Assembly: GCF_032050975.1 (NCBI RefSeq)
Contig: NZ_CP116967.1
Coordinates: 3,345,001-3,409,000 of the forward strand
Source of the DNA: Candidatus Nitrospira allomarina
GTDB lineage: Bacteria > Nitrospirota > Nitrospiria > Nitrospirales > UBA8639
Reading direction: 5' to 3'
Length of the DNA stretch: 64,000 nt
In this document: one piece after another, positions 8,102 to 11,039 of the stretch
How the letters are laid out: each line of letters starts with the position of its first letter
Numbering within the stretch: the first letter of the stretch is position 1
Made by a program: the position numbers and the translations under genes
Notes under the pieces: generated by a model
Databases searched by the model: none
What the model saw: the letters and a program-made list of their open reading frames with translations, nothing else
What the model was told of the DNA's origin: nothing

Positions 8102-9961
8102 ATGCCACCGGCCATTCATCCTGTTGATCTCATAGAAATACTCCGCCAGCATCGCTTGACTCCGGCGATTGTCTTTTTGACCTCCCGCCGGGCCTGCGAT
8201 GAGGCAATTGATACCTTTGCCCACAGTTCCGCCAGGATGTCGACTCAACGTTCGGAGGCTATTCGGGAGTTTCTGGAGAAATTCACCAAAAACTTCCCGA
8301 GTGTTGAGCATCACCCCTTAATTCCTGTCGTGCAGGAATTTGGAGTCGCCGCTCATCACGCGGGACATCTCCCTTCCTGGAAAATTGCGATTGAAGAACT
8401 CATGCGCCAGGGCTTGTTGGATGCAGTGTTTGCCACAACGACCTTGGCAGCGGGGGTCGACTTCCCGGCACGAACCGTCGTGATTACCCAATCCAGCGTA
8501 CGCAAATCACAGGATTTCACGGATCTGACCAACAGTGAAATTCAACAGTTGGCTGGCCGCGGTGGACGGCGAGGCAAAGATTTGGTGGGTGTGGTGGTCA
8601 TTACGCCCTCTCCTTACATTGACTTAAACATCCTTGGCAAAGGACTCACAGGCTATCCGGAACCGATCGACAGCCAATTTGTGGTGTCCTATCCCATGGT
8701 GCTAAATCTGCTCAAGGCCCATTCCCTGGATCAGATTGAGGGACTACTCGCAAAAAGCTTTGCGCAATTTCAGCTGAATCAACGATCAAGCATCCATCAA
8801 GATCATCTGGATCAGATCAAGGACCAATTAACACCCTATGGACCTCGGGAATGCGCCGATTGGATCACTCAGTGGAAAGGCTTTGATCTGGCCCGCCGCC
8901 GCAAAGCGCACCGACATCCTATTGTAACCAACGACACGCCATTCTTGACGGCCTGCCTGCCATTTCTGACTCCAGGGCGCCTCATCGGACTGCCAAAAGG
9001 TCCGGCGATTATTCTTCGTCAGTATCGAAGCCGTGGAACCTTTGCTCCAATGTTGTCTGTGATTCGGGCGAAAGGCACTCTGGGTGAGTGTCCTGCCCAT
9101 TCGGTCACTCAGGTCTACGACCGCCTCTTTGAGTTTCAGCCCTCTCGCACTATTCCCTGGTGTCAGCCTCAGGTGCTCGCTCAACTCAAGAAAGAGCTTT
9201 CCCAATTGCCTGCGCGTCTGCCCACCGTTCCGATTTTGCCGGAAACCCAGGAAACAGACGATCCGCTCCTTGCAGAAGTATTAACAGAGGAATTTCCCTG
9301 TCCCACCTGTCCCTCCCACCCGGCCTGCAAAAAAGACTTCCCCCTGGCGTCGAAACTTCGCCAGAAATCCCAGCAGTTGACCAAAACGATTCAAGCACTC
9401 CGTGATGGATTGTGGCACCGGTTTCAACAAAAAGCCGACGTACTCCATAAATTCGGATATATCACCGCCAATTCGCAACTCACGGCTGACGGGGAATGGG
9501 CTAGACTCATTCGGATTAACCATTCCCTACTCATCACAGAACTGATTCGTATGGAGGCCTTCTCAGGTATTGCTCCAGGATTGTTAGCGGGCGTGATGGC
9601 GAGTATATCCCATGATGATGATCGCCCAGGATCCTACATGCGCCTCCCGTCTGGACTGGCCTCCATGTTGACACAGGTGCGGGCGGTCGCTGATTCCTTG
9701 AGCCCGTATGAACCCCCGCCCTTGTTGCGCTCAGATGTCGCGGCACTGGTGGAAAGTTGGATCGGGAATCCCCAACTCACTTGGGCTTCACTGGTTCGTT
9801 CCACATCCATGGCCGAAGGGGATGTGTATCGCCTTTTAGCCAGAACCTTGGAATTTCTCTCTCAAATATATGGACTCAAGGTTACGCATCCCGGCTTGGC
9901 CGATACCGCCCACTCCGCGATGGTGACCATGCGCCGGGAAGTCCTGCAAGAACTTCCATAG
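8102..9961 (+). CDS. Ski2-type helicase, C-terminal half (RecA2 plus downstream domains)
   Basis: A 619-aa protein that starts where the second RecA domain of a Ski2/HelY-like helicase would start: motif IV region (PAIVFLTSRR, about 21-30), a conserved HHAGHLP segment (about 85), motif V (ATTTLAAGVDFPARTVV, about 111-127) and motif VI (QLAGRGGRRG, about 149-158). The winged-helix and helical-bundle regions and a Cys cluster (CPTCPSHPACKKDF, about 400-413) follow. No Walker A or DExH box is present in this gene. Both lie in the next gene (9984-11039), 22 nt downstream. The two products probably assemble into one ATPase acting on RNA or DNA, but the gene order is the reverse of the protein order. 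A frameshift cannot explain this. Confidence 0.85.
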   Translation: MPPAIHPVDLIEILRQHRLTPAIVFLTSRRACDEAIDTFAHSSARMSTQRSEAIREFLEKFTKNFPSVEHHPLIPVVQEFGVAAHHAGHLPSWKIAIEELMRQGLLDAVFATTTLAAGVDFPARTVVITQSSVRKSQDFTDLTNSEIQQLAGRGGRRGKDLVGVVVITPSPYIDLNILGKGLTGYPEPIDSQFVVSYPMVLNLLKAHSLDQIEGLLAKSFAQFQLNQRSSIHQDHLDQIKDQLTPYGPRECADWITQWKGFDLARRRKAHRHPIVTNDTPFLTACLPFLTPGRLIGLPKGPAIILRQYRSRGTFAPMLSVIRAKGTLGECPAHSVTQVYDRLFEFQPSRTIPWCQPQVLAQLKKELSQLPARLPTVPILPETQETDDPLLAEVLTEEFPCPTCPSHPACKKDFPLASKLRQKSQQLTKTIQALRDGLWHRFQQKADVLHKFGYITANSQLTADGEWARLIRINHSLLITELIRMEAFSGIAPGLLAGVMASISHDDDRPGSYMRLPSGLASMLTQVRAVADSLSPYEPPPLLRSDVAALVESWIGNPQLTWASLVRSTSMAEGDVYRLLARTLEFLSQIYGLKVTHPGLADTAHSAMVTMRREVLQELP

Positions 9962-9983
9962 CCACAGATGGGAACATACCGCC

Positions 9984-11039
9984 ATGCATCATGATGATCT
10001 CAAGCGCGAACTCCAAAGTTTACCGGTAAAGTATTTACATCACATGGCAAGAGGCCGCATCCATCGCCATTTTCGTCTCGGAAAACATCGACTTGTTGAA
10101 TTAATGCTGGCCTTACCAACGGACCAGATTCTGGCCATCGAAACCGAACTGCAGCAGATACTGACTACCCGCCAGGAACGCCTGGCCGCGCAAGAAGCCC
10201 GCGCCGCCGCACGCCCTCCAATTCCCGCTTCACCCTTTCAGGCAAAAAATCGTCCCAATAAGAGAAGGCCCACCTTCGGCCCTTTTCAGCCATCGATTAC
10301 GCTTAAGCAAATTCTGGAAGGAATTGGTGTTCCTGAGCCTCAACCCTTCGTTCCGGATCCCTGGCAAACCGAGGCGGTGGAACATCTGGCGCATTCAGAT
10401 GTCATTGTTAGCGCTCCGACGGGAAGCGGAAAAACCTATGTCGCCATTCAAGCGATCAGACAGGCCATGGCACTCAACCAAACGGTGATTTACACCTCTC
10501 CCCTAAAAGCGCTGTCAAATACAAAATTCATGGAATTCACCCAGCTTTTTGGACCGGATCAAGTCGGAATTTTAACCGGAGACCGGCGTGACAATGCTCA
10601 GGCCCCGCTCCTGGTCATGACGACCGAAATTTTGAGAAATTTATTTTATGATGCCGCCAGCGGGGAGATCGATTTACGGCTGCATACTCTGGGGTTGGTC
10701 ATTCTGGATGAATCCCAATATCTCGCCGATCCAGAACGGGGGGTGGTGTGGGAAGAAACCATTATTTTGTGTCCATCCCAAGCCCGGCTTCTTCTTCTCT
10801 CAGCATCTATCGGGAATCCTCAAGATTTGGCCGAATGGCTGCAAGCCATCAGGCCTATTCCATGCCATCTTATCCGCCATGCCAAACGATCCGTTCCGCT
10901 TCGAGGGCTGTATCTGCATCCTACCGGACAACTCGTTCCGCTTTTCAAAAACCAAGATATTCTCCAGGGTAAAGGTTTTACCTTTCATCCAGAAACAAAG
11001 CAGCTGTTCGCTGAATACGAAATTAAACCATTTCATTAA
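9984..11039 (+). CDS. Ski2-type DEAD/DEAH helicase, N-terminal half (RecA1)
   Basis: A 351-aa protein with a charged, Ala/Arg-rich N-terminal extension (1-120), then a complete RecA1 domain: Q-like motif near PWQTEA (about 126), Walker A APTGSGKT (144-151), motif Ia (TSPLKALSN), motif Ib (TTEILRN), Walker B DESQ (242-245) and motif III SAS (273-275). It ends about 40 residues after the LRGLYLHPTGQLVPLF segment, exactly in the linker before RecA2. The missing RecA2 half is encoded by the gene just upstream (8102-9961). The product could hydrolyse ATP only with that partner. DESQ in place of DEVH/DEAH is a mild deviation. Confidence 0.85.
   Translation: MHHDDLKRELQSLPVKYLHHMARGRIHRHFRLGKHRLVELMLALPTDQILAIETELQQILTTRQERLAAQEARAAARPPIPASPFQAKNRPNKRRPTFGPFQPSITLKQILEGIGVPEPQPFVPDPWQTEAVEHLAHSDVIVSAPTGSGKTYVAIQAIRQAMALNQTVIYTSPLKALSNTKFMEFTQLFGPDQVGILTGDRRDNAQAPLLVMTTEILRNLFYDAASGEIDLRLHTLGLVILDESQYLADPERGVVWEETIILCPSQARLLLLSASIGNPQDLAEWLQAIRPIPCHLIRHAKRSVPLRGLYLHPTGQLVPLFKNQDILQGKGFTFHPETKQLFAEYEIKPFH

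Follow-up and report, generated by a model that had tools for sequence, protein, structure and literature searches.

A Ski2-like helicase divided between two genes in reversed order across a bacterial order

A Ski2-like helicase that is one protein in relatives is here two proteins, with the gene for the rear half placed first, and this arrangement has been kept by a whole bacterial order. The two genes lie in the 64,000-nucleotide stretch of DNA that was analysed (the window). From the conserved motifs and a tethered AlphaFold model, we infer that their products very likely form a single RNA helicase of the Ski2-like (Mtr4/HelY) type, an obligate heterodimer in which the ATPase site is composite. 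Since a whole bacterial order has kept the arrangement, it is probable that one ATP site is shared between the two proteins. The pair is a likely case of a natural heterodimeric SF2 helicase, fixed across the order, in which the ATP site would form in trans between a RecA1 and a RecA2 protein.

It is commonly assumed that an SF1 or SF2 helicase needs its two RecA domains on a single polypeptide, since the cleft between the domains opens and closes during the ATP cycle. With a motor made of separate proteins and kept across an order, one can ask directly whether a covalent linker is needed, how the subunits hold together during the cycle and whether their pairing is regulated. If the proposed reading is true, control over subunit pairing perhaps gives the cell a switch for the motor. 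The pair also offers an example from nature on which split, inducible helicases could be modelled, and its gene fission with reversal of gene order can be traced.

Gene layout, domains and motifs

Both genes of the window are on the same strand, and the C-half gene precedes the N-half gene. The C-half gene starts just ahead of RecA2 and ends with the DSHCT domain, the N-half gene stops just past RecA1, inside the RecA1-RecA2 linker, and each half lacks the RecA domain of the other. Jointly they amount to a full helicase of the Ski2/Mtr4/HelY type, with the break at the RecA1-RecA2 boundary. A sequence-only reading had described the locus as a Ski2-type helicase split at this point, with the C half first and 22 nt between the genes, and its coordinates, motif order and boundaries agreed with the open reading frames (ORFs), motif positions and Pfam matches. 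The features are as follows.

8102..9961, + strand: C-half subunit gene, 619 aa (ORF; Pfam Helicase_C and DSHCT); parts in order: RecA2, winged-helix/ratchet region, barrel-like insertion with a Cys cluster, DSHCT
8165..8206, + strand: motif IV region AIVFLTSRRACDEA (FLTSRRACDEA), invariant or near-invariant in 95 split relatives
8429..8473, + strand: motif V FATTTLAAGVDFPAR, with ATTTLAAGVDFPAR inside this range, invariant in 95 of 95 split relatives
8543..8575, + strand: motif VI QQLAGRGGRRG, with the GR and RR arginines in 95 of 95
9293..9328, + strand: Cys cluster FPCPTCPSHPAC, its three cysteines invariant in 95 of 95
9473..9946, + strand: DSHCT domain (PF08148, residues 458-615, E 3.1e-20, over the cut-off)
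9962..9983, no strand: intergenic gap of 22 nt (from the sequence); the frames of the two genes are offset by one base
9984..11039, + strand: N-half subunit gene, 351 aa (ORF; Pfam DEAD); parts in order: SAP-like domain, disordered linker, RecA1, linker stub
9984..10211, + strand: SAP-like N-terminal helical domain of the N-half (AlphaFold pLDDT 84)
10413..10436, + strand: Walker A / motif I APTGSGKT, with PTGSGKT invariant in 94 of 94
10707..10718, + strand: motif II DESQ, in 94 of 94 split members
10800..10808, + strand: motif III SAS, in 94 of 94 split members
10914..11036, + strand: conserved C-tail of the N-half, HPE-K-LF-EYEE (from conservation; in the alignment the single-chain sister has a shorter linker that does not reach it)

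The genome, a single contig of 4.55 Mb, contains each half as a single copy, and the C-half is its only DSHCT protein. The sequence-only reading had reckoned with a separate intact helicase gene that would match both halves. The genome holds no such single-chain copy, which rules out a hidden full-length paralogue. In a scan for promoters and terminators, promoter-like matches were at background level and terminator-like matches slightly above it.

Members of this subfamily typically carry DExH as motif II and SAT as motif III, whereas the split members carry DESQ and SAS throughout. The comparison covered 78 single-chain proteins: all have DExH as motif II (DECH, DEVH or DEIH) and 77 have SAT as motif III. 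DESQ was found in none of the single-chain relatives examined. With DExH and, one exception aside, SAT in the single-chain proteins, we regard DESQ and SAS as traits of the split clade. Because they differ from the usual residues, they may alter catalysis in the split helicase. As a conserved variation, they also leave the placement in the subfamily to rest on trees and domains. Both DESQ and the GRGGRRG form of motif VI had been noted as deviations from the sequence alone; the former proved to be fixed, but the latter was rejected as a special motif, as 76 of 95 split relatives carry the ordinary GRAGRRG.

The N-terminal domain of the N-half was present in the split form only, being missing from the single-chain relatives compared. 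It had no match in Pfam. Its modelled fold is suggestive of a SAP domain: the top fold matches were SAP domains (2rno, Z 6.7, rmsd 2.4 over 65) and the N-terminus of Rho, although these matches are weak (Z < 8).

Conservation and selection within the order

Our sample comprised 296 genomes of the phylum, 99 of which belong to the order of the window. Relatives of the C-half were detected in 97 genomes of this sample and relatives of the N-half in 95, and both halves were present in 94 of the 99 genomes of the order. Where both genes fell on one fetched stretch (92 genomes), the C-half was followed by the N-half on the same strand in 91, which bears out the expectation of the sequence-only reading that relatives would share the reversed two-gene order. 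Chance falls far short of explaining an arrangement that recurs in about 94 genomes. In these 91 genomes the gap ranged from -4 to 182 nt (median 84), ten pairs overlapping by up to 4 nt. A fused pair was found in none of the 92 genomes, and all three relative frames were used.

The exception among the 92 was G187, in which 7.2 kb separates the two genes, both of them intact; the inserted DNA (L066; G187:C15, 20154-27349) contains a 1862-aa ORF and other sequence. In G193 (G193:C35 18003-43287), about 25 kb, in which there are apparently polysaccharide genes, lies between the halves and both genes are likewise intact. Apparent polysaccharide or nucleotide-sugar genes were seen downstream of the C-half in G193 and in G151:C5. 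Five genomes of the order were without the full pair. Three of these cases are contig-end cuts (G036 and G235 with the C-half only, G216 with the N-half only). The fourth, G151 (99% complete, 30 contigs), contains the C-half, and its N-half was not found within 46 kb or anywhere in the genome at E 1e-3. The fifth, G105, a member of the order with a 2.0-Mb genome (99% complete), is without either half. The flanks differ by family: in one family, DUF971, recO and era lie downstream and an MFS-type gene upstream, while in another glgC and def are found upstream; among the loci compared with longer flanks, the helicase pair were the sole genes common to all.

Both halves are under strong purifying selection. 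The median dN/dS was 0.05 for the C-half and 0.063 for the N-half, and the share of invariant columns was 44% in RecA1 and 48% in RecA2, against 8% in the N-terminal extension. Each protein carries half an ATP site, yet the core catalytic residues are essentially invariant: the Walker A core, DESQ, SAS, motif V and the motif VI arginines were conserved throughout the 94-95 relatives. The distance matrices of the two halves were correlated at 0.94, a value that shared phylogeny alone could give.

These data bear on whether the locus could be a pseudogene, or an ordinary helicase gene distorted by a frameshift or by faulty assembly. Nothing speaks for this except the unusual order itself. A frameshift or sequencing error cannot produce a reversed order, as the sequence-only reading had argued, and the same order recurs in about 94 independent assemblies at a dN/dS of about 0.05; a pseudogene or assembly artefact is therefore ruled out, its probability being negligible. 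Loss or disabled copies in close relatives, which that reading had held to count against a functional pair, are at odds with the presence of the pair in 94 of 99 genomes under such selection.

Another possibility is that the two halves end up in one chain, through read-through, frameshifting, or RNA or protein trans-splicing. Genes separated by a single in-frame stop codon, as in G243, G202 and G081, would fit this. However, the gap and the frame vary freely among relatives, G187 and G193 tolerate insertions of 7 and 25 kb, each gene has its own start and stop, and no intein-like sequence was apparent by eye at the C-terminus of the N-half or the N-terminus of the C-half. The variable frame and gaps rule out a programmed fusion, and joining by any of these routes is highly improbable.

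The halves might instead act separately, each pairing with other helicases or binding nucleic acid without ATP hydrolysis. The C-half without an N-half in G151 and the distances of 7 kb (G187) and 25 kb (G193) are in line with this. On the other hand, both halves retain all catalytic motifs, which are meaningful only jointly, the genes are neighbours in 91 of 92 genomes, and no second DSHCT helicase is encoded in the genome of the window. We consider separate action unlikely, and favour two subunits of one helicase, as the sequence-only reading had inferred.

Origin from a single-chain helicase

Of 80 relatives recovered in a genome scan, 77 are single chains with the normal domain order, and the remaining three are broken or cut. 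In Methylomirabilota and samples of three further phyla, nearly all matches have long open frames; a short match in G460 (L238) is of the same kind as L235-L237 and is cut by a contig end. The proteins L235, L236 and L237 (genomes G459, G462 and G458, from the phylum of G395) are the closest to the split pair and are single-chain with normal order. The split clade grouped with them in the trees of RecA1 (0.996), RecA2 (0.992), the whole C-half (0.998) and all columns (1.0). Because the separate RecA1 and RecA2 trees give the same single-chain sister, and because this sister has the normal order, we conclude from the trees that both halves descend from one gene and that the split and the reversed order are derived.

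An assembly of the halves from two different helicases, instead of one split gene, could be suspected from the long stem in both half-trees. It is very unlikely given the sister group common to both trees, with which the pair also shares the motif V sequence ATTTLAAG and an LEG-G-PEP stretch before RecA1. Under descent from one gene, a cut through the interdomain linker of a single-chain, normal-order gene would have taken place on the stem of the order, and the two parts would have come to lie in reversed order. The reversal may have come about by tandem duplication and subsequent loss of the outer halves, or by fission and rearrangement. Remnants of lost halves were not detected above background within the window.

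Two further helicases were noted. G185, a member of the class outside the order, encodes a single-chain, normal-order Ski2-like helicase of 718 aa with DECH (L062:4939-7095); the other genomes of the class outside the order that this search listed have none. It is possibly a transfer or contamination, and the trees reject it as sister of the split clade. G183 encodes a different Ski2-like helicase of 911 aa (L063:4814-7549), the C-terminus of which resembles a winged-helix response-regulator DNA-binding domain.

Proposed two-subunit helicase and known systems

In the proposed mechanism, the 351-aa subunit would supply RecA1 and bind ATP through Walker A, DESQ and SAS, and the 619-aa subunit would supply RecA2 with the motif VI arginines, as well as the winged-helix, ratchet and DSHCT portions. 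Hydrolysis of ATP would be confined to the interface between the subunits; the motif VI arginines would have to reach the ATP held by the other subunit. Gripping of nucleic acid or subunit docking are candidate roles for two parts of the small subunit that single-chain relatives lack, its SAP-like domain and its conserved C-tail.

The model of the pair was built from the natural in-frame read-through of the G243 genes, with TGA read as W solely as a tether and an alignment made of blocks of split and single-chain halves. It was confident as a whole, with a pLDDT of 88.2 and a pTM of 0.77. As we estimate a pTM ceiling of about 0.66 for a model with RecA1 unplaced against the C-half, this value suggests that RecA1 is docked on the C-half in the tethered model, although the tether itself could favour the contact. 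The modelled C-half matched Mtr4 (2xgj_B) with Z 23 and an rmsd of 2.6 over 395 residues, and the modelled RecA1 matched Brr2, Hel308 and Pol theta with Z about 18.5.

Judged by descent and domain content, the pair is a split derivative of the Ski2/Mtr4/HelY subfamily. The DSHCT domain typical of the subfamily is present at the C-terminus, and RecA1 with motifs I-III and RecA2 with motifs IV-VI are found in the pair, in neither protein alone. The single chain with RecA1 before RecA2 is replaced by two reversed genes in about 94 genomes. The best sequence matches in the PDB for both halves were the eukaryotic exosome helicases Mtr4/Dob1 and Ski2 (RecA1 5e-42, RecA2 5e-36), which the C-half also resembles by fold; these are single chains in normal order, and no exosome cofactor is known for the split pair. 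The sister proteins L235-L237 differ from the pair in being one chain in normal order, with DEAH and SAT, and in lacking the SAP-like domain and a 170-aa insertion. Hel308 belongs to the same superfamily and has matching motifs, but it is a single chain and its similarity to the split pair is far weaker than that of Mtr4/Ski2. A partial literature search, covering few subscription journals, found no published split Ski2 helicase.

HelY, compared here by description, is likewise a bacterial Ski2-like helicase with a DSHCT domain. It is one chain, whereas the split pair has two chains, a reversed gene order, DESQ and SAS, and the SAP-like extension. HelY of Mycobacterium smegmatis is described, in the part of PMC8931766 that cites Uson et al. 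2015, as an RNA-activated ATPase and 3'-5' RNA helicase. By analogy, the split helicase is predicted to be an RNA-activated ATPase that would move 3'-5' along RNA. The DSHCT profile also matched proteins of Corynebacterium glutamicum and Synechococcus elongatus.
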